Below are positions 8,977-34,176 of a DNA stretch of 38,976 nucleotides, in pieces. The translations under genes were made by a program, and so were the position numbers. A model generated the notes under the pieces. It was not told where the DNA came from. It saw nothing but the letters and a program-made list of their open reading frames with translations, and searched no databases. The DNA is from a virus. The DNA lies in IMG/VR virus record IMGVR_UViG_3300009370_000071, positions 1 to 38,976 of that record. One strand, written 5' to 3'. Positions within the stretch are counted from its first letter, which is position 1. Every line of letters begins with the position of its first letter.

Positions 8977-9467
8977 AAGCATTGCGTGTTGGTATTGACC
9001 CGGGAAGAAACGGTGGCATTGCAGCACGCATGGAAGATGACTCTATTCAACTTATTTCCTTTGCACCATACTTTAAAAACTCTGTGCACCAAGGATCATG
9101 TCAACTGTACGCAGAACTTGGAGAGTTTGGAATCACCCCTGCAACACAAGTGTACATGGAATACATTGCAGGATACATTAACGGTGCACGCCCTTCCCCC
9201 AAGGGGATGTTCACCTTTGGTTGTATGTATGGTGCAGTGATAGGAATTATGGCAGGCTATGTTCCACTTGAAAACATAACCGTGCTTACACCACAACACT
9301 GGCAGCGTTTAGTTGGTGCACCTGAAAAAGCAAGTGTTCCTGAAGGGCGGTGGAAACGTGCACTCCAAGACTTGGCCAAAGATCGTTTCCCGAAAGTGCG
9401 GAATATCACTCAAGCTGTCTCGGACGCCTTGTTAATCCTAGACGCTGGGGAAAGGTTCTCCGCTTAG
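8973..9467 (+). CDS. RuvC-like Holliday junction resolvase
   Basis: A 164-residue protein with the RNase H-fold resolvase signature: D9 in G-I-D-P-G, E63 in Y-M-E-Y and D151 in Q-A-V-S-D-A-L-L. These correspond to the metal-binding acidic residues of RuvC-family nucleases. It would cut branched DNA during recombination or before packaging. Phage genomes commonly carry such small resolvases. It overlaps the preceding gene by four bases and is followed by a gap where the gene style changes. Confidence 0.85.
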   Translation: MKALRVGIDPGRNGGIAARMEDDSIQLISFAPYFKNSVHQGSCQLYAELGEFGITPATQVYMEYIAGYINGARPSPKGMFTFGCMYGAVIGIMAGYVPLENITVLTPQHWQRLVGAPEKASVPEGRWKRALQDLAKDRFPKVRNITQAVSDALLILDAGERFSA

Positions 9468-9470
9468 GCC

Positions 9471-9479
9471 TGCTATACT
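9471..9479 (+). promoter_or_regulatory. Candidate extended -10 promoter element
   Basis: TGCTATACT is an extended -10-like sequence (TG-n-TATACT) just after the RuvC-like gene, at the head of the block of small genes. No good -35 hexamer is found 16-18 bases upstream. It is offered as the most likely transcription entry for the 9.5-15.4 kb block, on sequence resemblance only. Confidence 0.3.
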
Positions 9480-9550
9480 AGGCTCAAAATAGTTGTGAAA
9501 TTCTTCAAATAGTTCTTTCCTTTCAGGCACTTTTATCGTAAATTTAATCC

Positions 9551-9692: not shown

Positions 9693-9706
9693 CAGAAACA
9701 GACCAA
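9693..9706 (+). promoter_or_regulatory. Leader motif CAGAAACAGACCAA (copy 1)
   Basis: The motif runs directly into the ATG at 9706, the last A being the A of the start codon. It is exactly complementary, over 14 bases, to the loop of the stem-loop at 15390-15436. There is no Shine-Dalgarno sequence. Confidence 0.55.
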
Positions 9707-9980: not shown

Positions 9981-9991
9981 AAACAGACCAA
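9981..9991 (+). promoter_or_regulatory. Leader motif AAACAGACCAA (copy 2)
   Basis: An 11-base match to the shared leader directly precedes the ATG at 9991. The preceding base is T instead of G. Confidence 0.5.
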
Positions 9992-10920
9992 TGAAACAGA
10001 AAGTAGAACACTCCAAGGATCAGTTCCAAGATTGCGGTGACAACTGGTTCTCAATGAAACTTAACTTCCAAGAGTTCCACCACCTCGTTACTCAGTGTGA
10101 GCCTGCAAAGTCAACAGGTGAATGGGAACTCAGCAGTGTGAAGGGACAAGAGTCTTTCACCAAGACCAAAACCTGGGACCATGCAGTGCAGCTCTTCAAT
10201 GAAGGATGGGAAGAGGGTTTGGAGAAGGTTGCTGAAATCAGTGAGACCATTTCCAACACTGTGAAGCAGCAGCTTCCAGAGATGACCTTCCAGTATGACG
10301 TTACTGGTGGAATGGTAGATGTAGGGACTATGATGAGTGGAGTGCCTGAGTGCATGCTTAATTTCAATGAGCAGGAAACATCCGCAACCAAGTATGTGGA
10401 GCTGCACTTCAATGCTTCGGTGAGTGGGGGAGTTTCCACCAACGTTATAGAGAACAGAGGGGCCGCAATGATGGCTCTGATAGATGCTCTTGAAACAATG
10501 AACTACAGAACGAAGGTAGTGATGCATGATACCGCAGTTGGCGGGGTCAGCATGAATCACCAGTACACTCTGAAAGAATATGATGAGCCGCTCGAGAGGG
10601 ACCGGATGGCTTTCATGTGTCTCCACCCTTCTTCTCTTCGCCGCCTCGGCTTCAGGCTTATGGAGTTCGCCTGCACAGAGTTTCGTAAAGCAACCAATGT
10701 TAAGAGGAACGGTGGTTACGGTATGCCAGCCCATGAACTTCCAGCACGCATCTTCGATACCACTCCTGATCTCATAATTCACGGTATTAATCTTGCAGTG
10801 GTGGATGGCAAAGAAGTAGAGACAGCCTTCAATACCGCAGAGCAATCAATCAAGTGGGTGCTGGATATTCTCCAGGGGCTGGATGTCCCTCTGATGGAGC
10901 AGATTGAAATGAATGACTAA
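9991..10920 (+). CDS. DUF7192-like phage protein, probable partner of the MoxR ATPase
   Basis: A 309-residue acidic protein. An N-terminal region (1-80) is followed by a segment with V-T-G-G-M-V-D-V-G-T-M-M-S-G (about residues 104-117). A Rossmann-like stretch follows at about residues 160-185 with A-A-M-M-A-L-I-D-A-L-E then Y-R-T-K-V-V-M. This resembles phage proteins I know as DUF7192, which look VWA-like and often occur with a MoxR/CobS-type ATPase; a match from memory. The ATPase here is at 12794. MoxR-VWA pairs generally remodel or insert metals into protein complexes. The target in this phage is unknown. Confidence 0.5.
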   Translation: MKQKVEHSKDQFQDCGDNWFSMKLNFQEFHHLVTQCEPAKSTGEWELSSVKGQESFTKTKTWDHAVQLFNEGWEEGLEKVAEISETISNTVKQQLPEMTFQYDVTGGMVDVGTMMSGVPECMLNFNEQETSATKYVELHFNASVSGGVSTNVIENRGAAMMALIDALETMNYRTKVVMHDTAVGGVSMNHQYTLKEYDEPLERDRMAFMCLHPSSLRRLGFRLMEFACTEFRKATNVKRNGGYGMPAHELPARIFDTTPDLIIHGINLAVVDGKEVETAFNTAEQSIKWVLDILQGLDVPLMEQIEMND

Positions 10921-11168
10921 TCTCAGAAACAACCAAACCAAAGAAAGGAACAACAAGCAATGAAAAAAGCAATCTACCTAATCACCGCCCAGAGTGGGAT
11001 TCACCACGGTCTGTGCCTCGTCGCCTGTGAAGAGAACAAAGCTGACCTACCCCGGCTACAAAAGCAGCAGCGCCTGCAGCGATTCGATTCCAGAGAGGCT
11101 GCGGTAAAAGAGCACCCGAGCTGGGAAATGGAAATCATGTGCGCCTAATCTCAGAAACAACCAAACCA
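10918..11168 (+). repeat. Pair of identical 23-bp intergenic leader repeats
   Basis: The 23 bases starting at the stop codon at 10918 (to 10940) are repeated exactly at 11146-11168. Each begins with a TAA stop, continues CTCAGAAACAACCAAACC and feeds into the next gene's leader. Part of the repeat (AACCAAACCAAAG at 10931-10943) recurs at 15378-15390, just before the large stem-loop. The intergenic sequences in this block look modular rather than random. Confidence 0.7.
10960..11148 (+). CDS. Hypothetical small protein (62 aa)
   Basis: A 62-residue protein starting after AAGAAAGGAACAACAAGCA, which has a weak AAAGGA box about 11 bases upstream. The product is basic in the middle and ends with an acidic, Trp-containing segment. 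It sits between two copies of the 23-bp leader repeat. No family is recognised. Good spacing and codon use support it. Confidence 0.6.
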   Translation: MKKAIYLITAQSGIHHGLCLVACEENKADLPRLQKQQRLQRFDSREAAVKEHPSWEMEIMCA

Positions 11169-11171
11169 GAA

Positions 11172-11184
11172 AGAAACAGACCAA
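11172..11184 (+). promoter_or_regulatory. Leader motif AGAAACAGACCAA (copy 3)
   Basis: A 13-base match to the shared leader, ending on the A of the ATG at 11184. It supports choosing this start rather than the in-frame ATG at 11139, which overlaps the preceding gene. Confidence 0.5.
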
Positions 11185-12781: not shown

Positions 12782-12794
12782 AGAAACAGACCAA
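12782..12794 (+). promoter_or_regulatory. Leader motif AGAAACAGACCAA (copy 5)
   Basis: A 13-base match to the shared leader, ending on the A of the ATG at 12794 (MoxR-type ATPase). Confidence 0.5.
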
Positions 12795-13990
12795 TGAAAA
12801 ACACTAACTGGCTCAAAACAAGACTTCACAACGCAGTTGCAAAATACTTCATTCCTGCACACAACGGCCACGGTCGCAGGATGGTTAAGAGAAGGATTCA
12901 AACCTTCACCAGCCCCGAAGACATTCGCCAGGAACTTCGCATCAGAGAAGATTACTGGAACATCTTCTTCTCTCAGTTCGTCGCTGCAGAGATTAACGAA
13001 GGGCAAGGCAGTGGGCAGCTTAACTCTGCCAGCACTACTCCCGCTACTGACAACACCGCATCAGCTGCAGAGCTGGAGCAGGTGAAGAAGGAAAAGCAAG
13101 ACGCACTGACTGAAGTCATTGATCAAGCCGTCAAGCTTAAAGAGAACGAAGCTGAGATCGCTGAACTCAAGACCAAGACGGAAGGCATCCCCACAACGGT
13201 GGTCATCGACAACAAGATCACCAAAGAAAAGAAGGACATCGGGATGCAGCACTTCAAATACGAAGAGCTGTTCAGCAGGGTGCTGTGCGGGATCAATACT
13301 TTCCTCGTCGGCCCCGCTGGATCCGGTAAGACCACAGTTGCAGAGAAGTGCGCTGAGGCGCTCAAAGTTAAGTTCGGCATGATGAGTGTAGGACCGCAGA
13401 CCACCAAGTCGGACATCTTCGGTTACATGGATGCTAATGGAAATTACGTTTCCACTGAGTTTCGTAAGCGCTTCGAAGAGGGCGGCGTTTTCCTCCTTGA
13501 TGAGATTGATGCAGGACACGGTGGAGTTCTTACCGCAGTGAACGCAGCACTGGCCGGTAGCCTCTGCGCCTTCCCCGATGGAATGGTTCAGAAGCATAAA
13601 GACTTCGTCTGCATCGCAGCGGGTAACACCTACGGTTCTGGAGCAGACCGCCAGTATGTGGGACGCAACCAACTGGATGCAGCAACTCTGGATCGCTTCG
13701 ACTTCATCGACTTCCCCTACGACACCGCACTGGAGCAGGCCATCGTAGCTTCCTTTGAAGGTTCAGTAGAGTGGGTGCAGTTCGTACAGACGGTTCGCAC
13801 CGCAGTTGCAGAGCTTAAAGTTCGCCACGTTGTTTCCCCTCGGGCTTCGATCAATGGAGCCAAGCTGCTCGCCGCAGGACGGGATAAGGAAGAAGTCATC
13901 CGCACTCAGGTTTGGAAGTCACTGGATGTGGCAACCATCGAGAAGGTGCTCAACAAAGTCCGGGCGCTGGGGAATACTTTCCTCAGCTAA
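12794..13990 (+). CDS. MoxR/CobS-type AAA+ ATPase
   Basis: A 398-residue protein. The N-terminal 70 residues are basic/amphipathic, followed by a Ser/Thr linker and a charged coiled coil (about 92-132). The AAA+ core starts near residue 155: Walker A G-P-A-G-S-G-K-T (173-180), Walker B F-L-L-D-E-I-D (233-239), sensor-1 Asn278 in A-A-G-N-T, and Arg301 after L-D-A-A-T-L-D. This matches the AAA_5 (CbbQ/NorQ/CobS, MoxR) group, which remodels partner proteins, usually with a VWA protein. The DUF7192-like gene at 9991 is the likely partner. Both carry the shared leader. Confidence 0.88.
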   Translation: MKNTNWLKTRLHNAVAKYFIPAHNGHGRRMVKRRIQTFTSPEDIRQELRIREDYWNIFFSQFVAAEINEGQGSGQLNSASTTPATDNTASAAELEQVKKEKQDALTEVIDQAVKLKENEAEIAELKTKTEGIPTTVVIDNKITKEKKDIGMQHFKYEELFSRVLCGINTFLVGPAGSGKTTVAEKCAEALKVKFGMMSVGPQTTKSDIFGYMDANGNYVSTEFRKRFEEGGVFLLDEIDAGHGGVLTAVNAALAGSLCAFPDGMVQKHKDFVCIAAGNTYGSGADRQYVGRNQLDAATLDRFDFIDFPYDTALEQAIVASFEGSVEWVQFVQTVRTAVAELKVRHVVSPRASINGAKLLAAGRDKEEVIRTQVWKSLDVATIEKVLNKVRALGNTFLS

Positions 13991-14026: not shown

Positions 14027-14035
14027 ACAGACCAA
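14027..14035 (+). promoter_or_regulatory. Leader motif ACAGACCAA (copy 6)
   Basis: A 9-base match (GAT precedes instead of GAA), ending on the A of the ATG at 14035. It argues for this start rather than upstream in-frame codons that overlap the ATPase gene. Confidence 0.45.
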
Positions 14036-14690: not shown

Positions 14691-15352
14691 ACAAAGAACT
14701 AAAACAGCAACTGGCCGGAGCACTTGAAACAGAAGACGTTCCGAACACTAACCCAAATTGCAAAGCGTGCAACGACACTGGAAAAAATAGCCGAGGTAAT
14801 GTTTGCAAAGCTTGCGGTGGAGAAGGAGTCGAACTGCTAAAGGAAATGGAACGCGCAGACGATGACCGCCGTAGAGGGAAAAAGAAAATCTCCAAACCGA
14901 AACAACAAATCGTGAAAACCAAAACAAAGGTAGCAAAGAAGGTCGCTGTGAAGCGAGTAAAGGTTAAGACCGCAAAGGTCAAGTCCGTACAGGTTAAGAC
15001 TGCAAAGGTCAAAGCCACAAAGAAAATCGTTAACAAGAAACGTGCAGTAGTTAAGAAAGCTGCGGTGAAGGAAGTTAAGACTGCAAAGGAAGAACCGACT
15101 GGCTGCACTGCAGAGAAGGTTTCACCGCTTGGTGAGCCTCACTCCAACAACTGGATGCTCACTCGTCTGAAGAACTCAGCAGTGCTCGCGTTCACTCTCA
15201 AGACTGCATACCAATATCGTAGAGAGTTACGTGGCATGCTGGATAAGGCGGACACCCTTGAAAAAGTTGCAGAGGTGTTCTTTGCAGAGGGTGTTGAAAG
15301 TGATATGTGGAAGCTGTTTCTTTCGCACTTCTTCAACCTTCACAAGTTCTAG
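14687..15352 (+). CDS. Zinc-knuckle protein with histone H1-like Lys-rich linker
   Basis: A 221-residue protein in three parts. Residues 20-48 form a DnaJ-like zinc knuckle (C-K-A-C at 25-28, C-K-A-C-G-G at 40-45). Residues 64-135 are a Lys/Val/Ala/Thr tract with V-K-T-A-K-V-K repeats, like bacterial histone H1-like tails. At the DNA level, GGTTAAGAC-GCAAAGGTCAA units repeat around 14962-15011. Residues 150-221 are a folded, Leu/aromatic-rich C-terminal domain. It probably binds DNA through the basic tract. The strong stem-loop lies directly downstream. Confidence 0.6.
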   Translation: MNKELKQQLAGALETEDVPNTNPNCKACNDTGKNSRGNVCKACGGEGVELLKEMERADDDRRRGKKKISKPKQQIVKTKTKVAKKVAVKRVKVKTAKVKSVQVKTAKVKATKKIVNKKRAVVKKAAVKEVKTAKEEPTGCTAEKVSPLGEPHSNNWMLTRLKNSAVLAFTLKTAYQYRRELRGMLDKADTLEKVAEVFFAEGVESDMWKLFLSHFFNLHKF

Positions 15353-15377
15353 GATGGTGATATGATCCGTCCTGGTT

Positions 15378-15436
15378 AACCAAACCAAAGCGGCCGCTGA
15401 GTTGTTTACGTTGGTCTGTTTCTGCTCAGCGGCCGC
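15378..15436 (+). promoter_or_regulatory. Stem-loop with antisense copy of the early-gene leader
   Basis: A perfect 12-bp inverted repeat, GCGGCCGCTGAG (15390-15401) and CTCAGCGGCCGC (15425-15436), encloses a 23-base loop. Loop bases 15411-15424, TTGGTCTGTTTCTG, are the exact reverse complement of CAGAAACAGACCAA, the leader ending on the start codon of several early genes. Bases 15378-15390, AACCAAACCAAAG, are the other half of that leader in normal orientation (identical at 10931-10943). No T-run follows, so a standard terminator is unlikely. In a + strand transcript the loop would be free to pair in trans with early mRNAs. Alternatively the inverted repeats could bound an invertible segment. 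Confidence 0.6.
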
Positions 15437-15458
15437 CCCACCCTAAAGACCAAAAATA

Positions 15459-15899
15459 ATGAGTGCGCCAAATAAAGATGTGTTATTGAGAGGAGCACGG
15501 AGGAAGATGGAAAACGACGGAAGCATAATGGGAGATTGCTTTGAAGCATCTGCAAATTACCTACTTAATTTGTACTGGCTTAAAGATGAAGCAAACTGGC
15601 GCCTTGTGCACACTATGGTTCTTGCCCCAGAACATTCCCCCATTGCTGGAACAAGGTTTGCTCATGCATTCCTTTTAAACATTAAATACGGCGTTGCATT
15701 GGATGTTGCTAATGGTAAGAAAGTATGTCTGCCAAAAGAGAGATACTTCAACCTTGGAAACATCGATCCTGATTCATTCCCCTATGAAGAATACGATGTG
15801 CAACAATTACTGGATAAACTACAGTGCCACCAAACATATGGGCCGTGGACTGATAAAGATTGGAATGAAGCCCAAGAAGTAACACCGCTAATCAAATGA
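15459..15899 (+). CDS. Conserved-type phage protein with possible Cys-His-Asp site
   Basis: A 146-residue protein with G-D-C-F-E-A (Cys27), L-V-H (His50), G-T-R-F-A-H-A (His69) and A-L-D-V-A-N-G-K (Asp82), ending in a G-P-W motif. I recognise the pattern from uncharacterised phage and bacterial proteins of the type 'G-x-C-x-E-A ... G-H-A-W ... D-x-S-N-G'. The Cys, then His, then Asp order resembles papain-like or transglutaminase-like folds, which is inference. The leader is A-rich (CCAAAAATA). It overlaps the next start by four bases. Confidence 0.55.
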   Translation: MSAPNKDVLLRGARRKMENDGSIMGDCFEASANYLLNLYWLKDEANWRLVHTMVLAPEHSPIAGTRFAHAFLLNIKYGVALDVANGKKVCLPKERYFNLGNIDPDSFPYEEYDVQQLLDKLQCHQTYGPWTDKDWNEAQEVTPLIK

Positions 15900-16309: not shown

Positions 16310-17784
16310 TGGCACAGATAACGTTTGACGGTATGGGGCTGCTGGATCACCAGCGGTCCCATGCTGTTTCCCTTATGCGGGCTGTTAGAAATAACAACCG
16401 TGTTGTTGATACGTCAGACACAGGCACTGGTAAAACATATGTAGCTTGTTGGGTTGCAAGAGAACTTGATTTGGATCTCGTGGTGATATGTACAAAGTCA
16501 GGAATCTCTGCATGGAAGAAAGCGTCTGCGCTAATCGGCTGTAGGCTTCACACTGTTGTTAACTATGAAAAGGTTCGTACAGGTAAGCACCCGCTGTTTA
16601 CTCGTCACGGAAAGAAAGGAAGAAACATTTCATTCAGATATGAAATAGAAGAAGACGCACTTACCGTATTTGATGAAGCACATAGATGCAAGGGAAGTTC
16701 TACGCTCAATTCAAAGTTGATGGATGCAGTAACAAAGAGCAAAGGAAAAGGAATTGCATGCAGTGCAACACTTGCCATAGACCCAACTCAAATGCGCGCC
16801 ATAGGTTGGTTCATTGGTCTGTATGATAAGAAAGCGGACTTCTGGTGGTGGGCGCATAGTAACGGCTGTGCAAAAAATCCTGTGTGGGGGAACTTAGAAT
16901 TTACAACAAACGAAGAGAAGCAAGATCGGCATCTAACAAAACTGCATTCCATAATGTATCCTAAGCGCGGTGCACGTATGTTGGTTGACGAACTTAAAGG
17001 GTTTCCAAAGAACAACATTTTTGCAGATGCATATGACATACCAAAAGGGGCACAGCTGAAACGCATATACAAACAAATGCAGGAAGACATCGACGATCTT
17101 AACGAACACAAAAAAGAAGTTACAAAGAAAGCAATAGACCGTGATCGTGAAGCGCACAAACTTGAATGTTTCCAACAAGGCATTGCATACGATGAAGAGA
17201 GTTTTGAAGAAAGCTGGAAGCCATCACCACTTAGCGTTTTAAGCCATGCTAGAGAAAAAGCAGAGCTGCTAAAGGTTCCGGTGCTGCTAGAGCTGATTCA
17301 GAACGCAAGAGGAGAAGGAAAGTCAGCCGTTGTGTTTGTGCACTTTAGAGCCACTCTCGAGGCACTTAAAGAAAAGCTGCAAAAGGAGGCACCTTCAATG
17401 GTCTATGGTGGCCAGAGCGTGACAGTGCGTGATCTACAGGTGGCTCGGTTCCAAGCGAACGAGACGAGAGTGATACTGACTCAGATTAGGGCTGGAGGAG
17501 AATCTATTGACCTTGATGATCAAGATGGTCGTTTCCCTCGTGTGTCATTCATCAGCCCTGGATACAGTGCAATCGAACTAGTGCAAGCTGCAGGCCGCAT
17601 ATGCAGGTCTAACACAAAATCATATGTAGCACAATACTTGGTATTCGCAAAAGGTTGTGTAGAAGAAGAAGCTTGTGCAGCAGTGGAATCAAAACTAGCA
17701 AACCTTCGATTACTAAATGATGGCGATTTGACTAAAGGTATTCGCCTCGAGAAAAAGGACGAGCAAGGTTTGCTAGCCTTGTAG
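16309..17784 (+). CDS. SF2/SNF2-like DNA helicase
   Basis: A 491-residue protein with ordered SF2 motifs: D-T-G-T-G-K-T at 37-43, F-D-E-A-H (motif II, 121-125), C-S-A-T-L (motif III, 151-155) and Q-A-A-G-R-I-C-R (motif VI, 426-433). The ATPase would use ATP to translocate on or remodel DNA. Phages with this gene order (helicase, Cas4-like nuclease, PolA, primase-helicase) use it in replication or recombination. A charged helical insertion lies at about residues 245-320. It overlaps the previous stop. Confidence 0.92.
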   Translation: MAQITFDGMGLLDHQRSHAVSLMRAVRNNNRVVDTSDTGTGKTYVACWVARELDLDLVVICTKSGISAWKKASALIGCRLHTVVNYEKVRTGKHPLFTRHGKKGRNISFRYEIEEDALTVFDEAHRCKGSSTLNSKLMDAVTKSKGKGIACSATLAIDPTQMRAIGWFIGLYDKKADFWWWAHSNGCAKNPVWGNLEFTTNEEKQDRHLTKLHSIMYPKRGARMLVDELKGFPKNNIFADAYDIPKGAQLKRIYKQMQEDIDDLNEHKKEVTKKAIDRDREAHKLECFQQGIAYDEESFEESWKPSPLSVLSHAREKAELLKVPVLLELIQNARGEGKSAVVFVHFRATLEALKEKLQKEAPSMVYGGQSVTVRDLQVARFQANETRVILTQIRAGGESIDLDDQDGRFPRVSFISPGYSAIELVQAAGRICRSNTKSYVAQYLVFAKGCVEEEACAAVESKLANLRLLNDGDLTKGIRLEKKDEQGLLAL

Positions 17785-32250: not shown

Positions 32251-34047
32251 ATGCAGGAATCCTTTTGGAATGCATTCGTTGTTCCAGATCGTAGCCCGCT
32301 ATGGGAGTGGGCAGAGAACAATCATGTAGTTCTTCCGCATTCTGTTAGGTCTCAAGATTTTGACATTGGCATCGCACCGTGGTTACGAGACCCAGCCACT
32401 GCGATAACAGACGGCATCACAGAAGAAGTCACAATCATTGGTGCAGTGCAAGGGGCGAAATCAACCATTGGAGAAGTCGCGTTAAATTACTGGGCTTCCA
32501 ACGATCCTGGCCCAACAATGTATAACTGCCAAACGAATGAAGATGCTTGGGAAGCAGCTGAAGATAGAATTTTGCCTATGATGCGAGCGTCCGATACGAC
32601 TAAAGCGTTGTGTGATTCGTGGGATCTCAGTAAGAAAAAACTAACAGCACCGGGATGGTACATTTTATTTCAAGGAGCGCACGCACGATCAAACCTGCAG
32701 TCCAAATCTATACGATACCTCGTTAATGAAGAACCGTGGATGTACCCTCCCGGCAATCTAACAGAGGCGTACAAACGAGTTACCGCTACTTGGAATTCGT
32801 TTGTTTTAAATCTTAGCACTGGCAGCATTCAAGGAGACGAATTATCGGGGAGGATTGGTGATGCAACAAAATGGTCGTACAATTGCTGTTGCCCCAAGTG
32901 CAAAAAACTCTTTACTCCCAAGTGGTCGACCAGTCCTGATCCTAAAATTCCTGGTGGCATTCGTTATGACAAGTCTTTGATTAAAGAAGACGGCACTTGG
33001 GATCCACAAGCAATGAGGAAATCTATTTACTATGAATGCCCCAATAAAAAATGCAAAGCAAAAATAAAGGACACTCCTTCTAACAGAAGGTTTATGTCGG
33101 ATAACGGGCAGTATGTTAGAACAAAGAAGGGCATTCCTGAAAAACATTTCTATACGTATAACGGTATAGCCGTGACGTGGGTGCGGTTTTACGACATGGT
33201 GGAGGAATGGTTAAAGGCATTACGTGCAGTAAGATTAGGAGATGAGACTTTGCTGAAAGAGTTTGTGATGAAACGTTTAGCAGAGTTTTGGGATCCAGAT
33301 GTTCATCGTCCTGTTGTGTCTTCAGTAAGAGTTAAAACTCAATTACGACTGAACACCCGCCTTAAAAATGCTGATTACAGAGCAATGACGGTGGATACTC
33401 AACACGATCACTTTTGGGTTGTAATACGAGATTGGAAAAGAGATGAGTGCAGTCGTCTTATTCATTATGAACGTGCAGAAACAAAGGAAGAAGTAGAGAA
33501 CCTTCGGATTGCATACGCAGTAGAGCCGCAGTTTGTTTTAATTGACGCAGCACACTTTACTGCCCGAGTGTATCGTATGTGTTCCGAGTTTAATTACACC
33601 GCTGTTAGAGGGTCTGATAAAAGAATGTTCCTGCATTTCATTGATCATGGAACTTACAAAGAAAAGATTCACCGCATCTATTCACCTATGCAGGAAGTTG
33701 ACCCGTGGATAGGAACAAAAGATGCAGGAACAAAAACAGCTATGCTCATTCATTTCTCAAAGTTTGAAGCACGTGAAAGGTTATTCGCATTGAGGCGTGG
33801 CGAGGTAGAAGGTTTTGAGTATGAGGTGCCTCATGATGTCGGGCAAGACTATCATACACAGATGGACTCAGAAGAGAAAAGACTCAGGCAGCACCCAAGA
33901 ACAGGGGAGCAATTAGAAGAGTATGTTCAGATCCGTAGGCATAACCATATCCTTGACTGCGAGGTGTTCCAGGTAGTGCTTGCAAGCATTACTGGGTTAG
34001 TGGGGGCTGAAGCCATGGAAGTGGAGCAGGAGATGTCATCTTCGTGA
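32251..34047 (+). CDS. Terminase large subunit, GpA family
   Basis: A 598-residue product from the ATG at 32251, ten bases after the small subunit; an in-frame ATG at 32167 would overlap it by 74 bases. The N-terminal ATPase has a Walker A-like G-A-V-Q-G-A-K-S and a Walker B-like L-V-N-E-E-P-W. A zinc-ribbon insertion follows (C-C-C-P-K-C, later C-P-N-K-K-C). The C-terminal nuclease has V-D-T-Q-H-D, L-I-D-A-A-H and L-D-C as RNase H-like acidic sites. It pumps DNA into the procapsid and cuts it. The family layout matches lambda gpA homologues. Confidence 0.92.
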   Translation: MQESFWNAFVVPDRSPLWEWAENNHVVLPHSVRSQDFDIGIAPWLRDPATAITDGITEEVTIIGAVQGAKSTIGEVALNYWASNDPGPTMYNCQTNEDAWEAAEDRILPMMRASDTTKALCDSWDLSKKKLTAPGWYILFQGAHARSNLQSKSIRYLVNEEPWMYPPGNLTEAYKRVTATWNSFVLNLSTGSIQGDELSGRIGDATKWSYNCCCPKCKKLFTPKWSTSPDPKIPGGIRYDKSLIKEDGTWDPQAMRKSIYYECPNKKCKAKIKDTPSNRRFMSDNGQYVRTKKGIPEKHFYTYNGIAVTWVRFYDMVEEWLKALRAVRLGDETLLKEFVMKRLAEFWDPDVHRPVVSSVRVKTQLRLNTRLKNADYRAMTVDTQHDHFWVVIRDWKRDECSRLIHYERAETKEEVENLRIAYAVEPQFVLIDAAHFTARVYRMCSEFNYTAVRGSDKRMFLHFIDHGTYKEKIHRIYSPMQEVDPWIGTKDAGTKTAMLIHFSKFEARERLFALRRGEVEGFEYEVPHDVGQDYHTQMDSEEKRLRQHPRTGEQLEEYVQIRRHNHILDCEVFQVVLASITGLVGAEAMEVEQEMSSS

Positions 34048-34101
34048 TGTTATTGTGTTCTTGTTATTCTTGTCACAAGAACACACAATAATACAATAAC
34101 A
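34048..34101 (+). repeat. Compound stem-loop after the large terminase
   Basis: TGTTATTGT (34048-34056) pairs with ACAATAACA (34093-34101), and inside it GTTCTTG (34057-34063) pairs with CAAGAAC (34076-34082) around a 12-base loop, with a bulge on the right arm. It begins right after the terminase stop. There is no following T-run, so it may be an RNA stability or attenuation element rather than a classical terminator. Confidence 0.5.
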
Positions 34102-34144
34102 TACCATGTGTCTAACGGATCTACACGTCTATCGTATGTGTACA

Positions 34145-34176
34145 CTCTAACATATCCCGCAAAAGATATGTTAGAG
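34145..34176 (+). promoter_or_regulatory. Operator-like inverted repeat built from two heptamers
   Basis: CTCTAACATAT (34145-34155) and ATATGTTAGAG (34166-34176) form a perfect 11-bp inverted repeat around a 10-base spacer. Each arm contains one copy of the TGTTAGA/TCTAACA heptamer, and a third copy follows at 34194-34200. It lies in the gene-free stretch before the connector gene. It looks like a dimeric protein-binding site or RNA hairpin. Confidence 0.5.

Follow-up and report, generated by a model that had tools for sequence, protein, structure and literature searches.

A phage hairpin with a loop antisense to the phage's own repeated start-codon leader, and its counterparts in Cluster K mycobacteriophages

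The DNA analysed here, referred to as the window, is the whole of IMG/VR record IMGVR_UViG_3300009370_000071 (38,976 bases, one genome), and it carries between genes 14687 and 15459 a strong hairpin whose loop is antisense to a leader repeated at the starts of the phage's own genes. Judging from sequence comparison and predicted folding, we consider it probable that this hairpin acts as an RNA whose loop base-pairs in trans, at start codons, with many leaders. Among the explanations considered this one has the best support, chiefly from phages with a different leader, in which the same architecture recurs and has been maintained.

The presence of tape measure, terminase, portal, PolA and helicase genes identifies the window as a tailed phage, and all of its major open reading frames lie on the + strand. 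Near-copies of CAGAAACAGACCA abut the ATG of six genes (9706, 9991, 11184, 11764, 12794 and 14035), and the leader core CAGAAACAGACCAA ends at the ATG in all six of these co-oriented genes (Table 1). Allowing at most one mismatch, the whole record holds 6 copies of the core against 0.03 expected. The six leaders form a short asymmetric repeat in a single orientation, placed at gene starts in the manner of the start-associated sequences discussed below; most of them lack a Shine-Dalgarno core, and they are predicted to be mostly unpaired (0.61-0.88). Two of the leader genes encode a DUF7192 protein (9991-10920) and a MoxR-like AAA ATPase (12794-13990), which co-occur in many otherwise unrelated environmental phages, a pattern that suggests a functional pair. 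Elsewhere in the window, gene 14687 contains at 14938-15090 a tandem 15-bp repeat encoding a K-V-K-T-A-K-like, lysine-rich and histone-like stretch, and the gap after the terminase gene harbors AT-rich inverted repeats, two or three in number, that are nested or lie next to each other (34047-34102 and 34145-34176).

Table 1. Positions of the leaders, the hairpin and related features; coordinates are those of the window unless a phage is named.
Feature	Position	Strand	Remarks
Leader CAGAAACAGACCAA	9693..9706	+	ends on A of ATG 9706; duplex with loop -26.0 kcal/mol
Leader CATAAACAGACCAA	9978..9991	+	gene 9991 (DUF7192); duplex -24.1 kcal/mol
AACCAAACCAAAG in leader of gene 10960	10931..10943	+	sequence read
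Leader AAGAAACAGACCAA	11171..11184	+	gene 11184; duplex -24.0 kcal/mol
Leader CAGAAACAGACCAA	11751..11764	+	gene 11764; duplex -28.3 kcal/mol
Leader AAGAAACAGACCAA	12781..12794	+	gene 12794 (MoxR-like AAA ATPase); duplex -26.2 kcal/mol
Leader AGGATACAGACCAA	14022..14035	+	gene 14035; duplex -22.9 kcal/mol
Promoter-like TTCACA-16-TATGAT, TGn before -10	15339..15366	+	consensus match only; predicted start ~15373
Sense leader piece AACCAAACCAAAG	15378..15390	+	directly 5' of stem, last G shared with stem; identical to 10931-10943
Stem left arm GCGGCCGCTGAG	15390..15401	+	sequence and RNA fold
Loop TTGTTTACGTTGGTCTGTTTCTG, 23 nt	15402..15424	+	sequence and RNA fold
Antisense leader core, exact reverse complement of CAGAAACAGACCAA	15411..15424	+	sequence match
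Stem right arm CTCAGCGGCCGC	15425..15436	+	sequence
Degenerate leader AAAGACCAAAAATA	15445..15458	+	precedes ATG at 15459; read directly
Second antisense match CATTGGTCTGTAT	16812..16824	+	inside helicase gene, no clear hairpin
K1 anti-SAS hairpin	Adephagia 58,659-58,715 (L213:33660-33716)	sense strand	reverse SAS in loop
K4 anti-SAS hairpin	Fionnbharth L230:7266-7330	strand of the genes	reverse SAS in loop
K5 anti-SAS hairpin	Kratio L326:797-844	sense strand	reverse SAS in loop

The hairpin at 15390-15436 consists of a perfect 12-bp GC-rich stem closing a 23-nt loop. The RNA fold of 15353-15460 reaches -37.4 kcal/mol (z = -4.9), and none of 200 shuffled sequences folded as well. A first-pass annotation of the sequence had described this hairpin and its antisense loop, and every number it gave, for the stem, the loop bases 15411-15424 and the match lengths, proved correct; the leader piece AACCAAACCAAAG that it placed 5' of the stem is likewise present. 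To these features we add AAAGACCAAAAATAATG at 15445-15461, absent from that annotation, which resembles a degenerate leader of gene 15459. Since sense leader pieces flank the hairpin on both sides, the hairpin sits inside a leader copy. Directly 3' of the stem lies CCCACCCTAAAG, without the U-tract of an intrinsic terminator.

The loop exactly complements the leader core at genes 9706 and 11764, while the match extends over 13 nt at 11184 and 12794, 11 nt at 9991 and 9 nt at 14035, and positions 15411-15424 hold the only reverse copy of the core in the record. At 9706 and 11764, a loop G opposite the U of the AUG forms a G-U wobble, giving 16 contiguous RNA pairs that include the start codon, a longer duplex than the first-pass annotation had given. 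Duplex energies between the loop and the six starts are -22 kcal/mol or below (-22.9 to -28.3), against a median of -11.8. By comparison, none of 600 random 23-mers from the window brought more than three starts to -22 kcal/mol, and none of 600 shuffled loops brought more than four. Nested co-folding was left out of these calculations, as a complex between a loop and a linear RNA is beyond its model. Among the 26 perfect hairpins of at least 8 pairs in the window, only the one at 15390-15436 contains 14 nt antisense to a gene start, the next best having 11. The second antisense match in Table 1, CATTGGTCTGTAT, is complementary to 11 nt of all six leaders and to 13 nt of the leader at 14035; it may be a chance occurrence, and it indicates that shorter antisense matches can arise elsewhere.

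A promoter-like site is found at 15339-15366, from which an RNA would start approximately 17 nt before the stem. No other site in the window combines an extended -10 with 10 or more of the 12 consensus matches; 0.45 such sites are expected per strand in Markov sequences. The scan used the sigma-70 consensus, which may not apply in the host of this phage. We propose that RNA is probably made from this site, in the form of a short RNA or of the first part of a transcript running from gene 15459 onwards. Since no U-tract follows the stem, a discrete short RNA would need processing or another terminator, and for the same reason the hairpin may open the longer transcript at its 5' end instead of forming a separate RNA. 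The strong stem would display the loop, in which the repeated leader of the phage stands in reverse complement, and the loop would then pair in trans over the start codons of 9706, 9991, 11184, 11764, 12794 and 14035, so that translation of the six genes might be blocked or retuned as a group. The first-pass annotation had suggested that the hairpin would be a switch that shuts down or times a block of early genes. Its trans pairing at start codons stands as the best-supported reading, backed by the Cluster K cases and the upstream promoter-like site, whereas the early status of the leader genes is an assumption; we infer that the hairpin is transcribed, that it pairs inside the cell, that its effect is repression and not activation, and that it acts in timing.

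In Cluster K mycobacteriophages, 13-bp start-associated sequences (SAS; consensus GGGATAGGAGCCC, with an AGGAG core) stand at 11-19 gene starts (PMC3203893). SAS mark many non-structural genes, and a single reverse copy in K1 phages was noted without explanation; their role has been unassigned since 2011, when the authors raised the question of whether their reader is a protein or an RNA, encoded by host or phage (PMC3203893). We found that the reverse-oriented SAS forms the loop of a strong hairpin in K1, K4 and K5 phages, at three different places in the genome. K1 phages have one reverse SAS per genome, and it occupies the loop of a hairpin whose energy is about -26 to -34 kcal/mol; this hairpin is found in Anaya, Adephagia, Angelica and further K1 phages with differing stems. 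Their loop, CCTCCTATCCC, is constant though the stems differ, and 97.5% of the cells of the stem remain paired. Covariation in the K1 stem is modest only; what carries the argument is the constant loop, its relocation and its pairing. The K1 hairpin comes second among several hairpins of an intergenic stretch that is conserved and structured (L213:33560-33800 and homologues); the stretch begins with a conserved CTTTTAGACT, ends with TGGCTGGTCACC and may be a larger non-coding RNA.

In Fionnbharth and its K4 relatives a different hairpin (-50 kcal/mol), located before the primase gene, presents the same loop as K1. The K5 phages Kratio, OkiRoe and Rando14 have a hairpin of some 16 bp in the interval that separates tRNA-Trp from the terminase small subunit, with an invariant loop and one stem pair compensated in Rando14; a loop that is kept while the stem varies is thus seen in both K1 and K5. 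Amginevirus and Unicornvirus have altered loops, yet the pairing with SAS persists: it is clearly better than that of shuffled loops for three of the four (p <= 0.016) and borderline for the Amohnition loop (p = 0.052). A 17-nt stretch covering loop and inner stem is common to K1 and K5, and K4 shares the loop only; on this sequence identity the K1 and K5 hairpins may be one element that moved, not two inventions. Three metagenomic contigs that contain the K1/K5 17-mer and lack SAS, taken as a negative control, have no such hairpin. K8 phages, which have no SAS, lack the reverse copy, and the hairpin is absent from K2 and K3. The reverse SAS of ZoeJ was set aside, as it can also be read as a leftward gene start and has no strong hairpin. 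We found no description of anti-SAS hairpins in the literature covered, which does not include the ZoeJ paper.

A motif-blind scan of 16 phage records was performed for hairpin loops with 9 nt antisense to a word common to at least four gene starts. Among approximately 3,000 hairpins it matched only three, each located on the sense strand: those of the window, Adephagia and Kratio. The antisense hairpin is absent from Mordin, contig G002, G004, L009, ZoeJ and Pixie despite their repeated leaders; the element is therefore optional, as Mordin, G002, ZoeJ and Pixie illustrate. A further candidate, contig G001 (L253, 3300010362_000060), carries six leaders of the form GGAAAGG(A/G)AACAGACCAATG together with a single reverse copy at 9330-9480, in a weak hairpin beside a T-arm-like stem GCGGGGTTCGATTCCCCGC within a tRNA-like three-way fold for which ARAGORN and Rfam gave no match. 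We dropped it as support, because the reverse copy comes with AGGAGG and an ATG that shares the frame of an open reading frame on the opposite strand, and may itself be a gene start.

The flanks of the window hairpin also fit another history, one that the first-pass annotation had not considered and that we regard as an unlikely account of the element: a hairpin grew in a leader copy, by template switching or otherwise, its loop was flipped, and the antisense match is a functionless by-product. In agreement with this, the stem is immediately flanked by the sense piece AACCAAACCAAAG on its 5' side and by AAAGACCAA on its 3' side, and un-inverting the loop gives AACCAAACCAAAG-arm-CAGAAACAGACCAACG, with both leader halves in order. 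Template switching and hairpin mutation are known to yield perfect stems and small inversions of loops (PMC8794818, PMC12371153), and small inversions occur in the hairpins of chloroplast DNA. Such a relic, however, would leave unexplained both the promoter-like site and the recurrence in Cluster K, with its conserved loops and changing stems, and it would be expected to drift, yet the stem is perfect and the sole deviation at the start codon still forms a pair, G-U, once in RNA. The hairpin may have arisen by inversion of a leader copy; such an origin is compatible with present function, and neither shows nor excludes it.

Its position between genes 14687 and 15459 raises the alternative of an element that acts in cis on the transcript of one of these genes only, as a 5'-UTR stabiliser, processing site, terminator or pseudoknot, and the loop can indeed pair with its own downstream AAAGACCAA. 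We consider this improbable. The cis pairing is far weaker than that in trans (-10.5 vs -23 to -28 kcal/mol), and the K1, K4 and K5 hairpins have no SAS directly downstream. A terminator has no need of a 14-nt antisense loop, the U-tract is absent and the terminator scan gave no match at the hairpin, although that scan accepts only loops of 3-8 nt and would miss one of 23 nt anyway. Least probable is a DNA-level role, in which leaders and inverted copy alike bind a DNA-binding regulator, as the repressor reads the asymmetric 13-bp stoperators of Cluster A (cited as a contrast to SAS in PMC3203893), since all six leaders end exactly at the ATG, which fits translation, and the strong stem would have no role.

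Protein and DNA searches found no close relative of the window and no relative with the hairpin locus, so conservation within its own lineage cannot inform on function. Queries with the MoxR, helicase, PolA and gene-15459 sequences returned only distant phages (best 31-52% identity), without leader or hairpin. The most similar phages share the order of PolA, helicase and exonuclease at 23-42% identity and likewise have neither element. The exact stem arms do not occur in the viral contigs searched, and matches to GAAACAGACCAATGA in 115 viral-contig stretches were rejected as relatives, being mostly single chance copies.

Returning to trans pairing, we see an even chance that it is general, that is, that phages with a common start-site leader, unrelated ones included, repeatedly evolve one antisense hairpin as a one-to-many translation switch for a gene block. 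If true, the anti-SAS hairpin would be the missing partner of the start-associated sequences. The Cluster K hairpins are concrete candidates for the SAS reader, open to deletion in laboratory phages that have been studied in depth, Adephagia among them. That an unrelated phage follows the same logic suggests that phages have a general means of controlling many genes through one short RNA.

Among known systems, the c4 antisense RNA of phages P1 and P7 is structured, carries its antisense segments in loops and acts in trans near a ribosome binding site (PMC12197685). The window hairpin resembles it in presenting on a stem a loop segment antisense to the start regions of phage mRNA, but its loop fits six leaders of separate genes where c4 has a single target mRNA, ant. 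At gathering scores Rfam gave no match and we assign the hairpin to no known RNA family, the likeness to c4 being one of architecture. The OOP and sar RNAs of lambdoid phages are antisense RNAs that lower expression of phage genes (PMC12197685), and like the RNA proposed here they are phage-coded and directed against phage genes; they are transcribed opposite a single target, whereas the window element shares the strand of its targets and is located kilobases away from them. Citrobacter phage Mordin has an SAS-like 26-bp repeat at gene starts (PMC4611695), comparable to the window leader, but its whole genome contains no antisense copy. As with SAS, the window leader is a short asymmetric repeat at many starts with one reverse copy; it differs in its sequence (CAGAAACAGACCAA), in abutting the ATG and in serving six genes instead of 11-19. 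As it does not match the Cluster K consensus with its AGGAG core, it would be SAS-like in its working and outside that sequence family. We propose a class of anti-SAS hairpins, defined by a loop antisense to the phage's own repeated leader and located on the strand of the genes, to which the window, K1, K4 and K5 hairpins belong.
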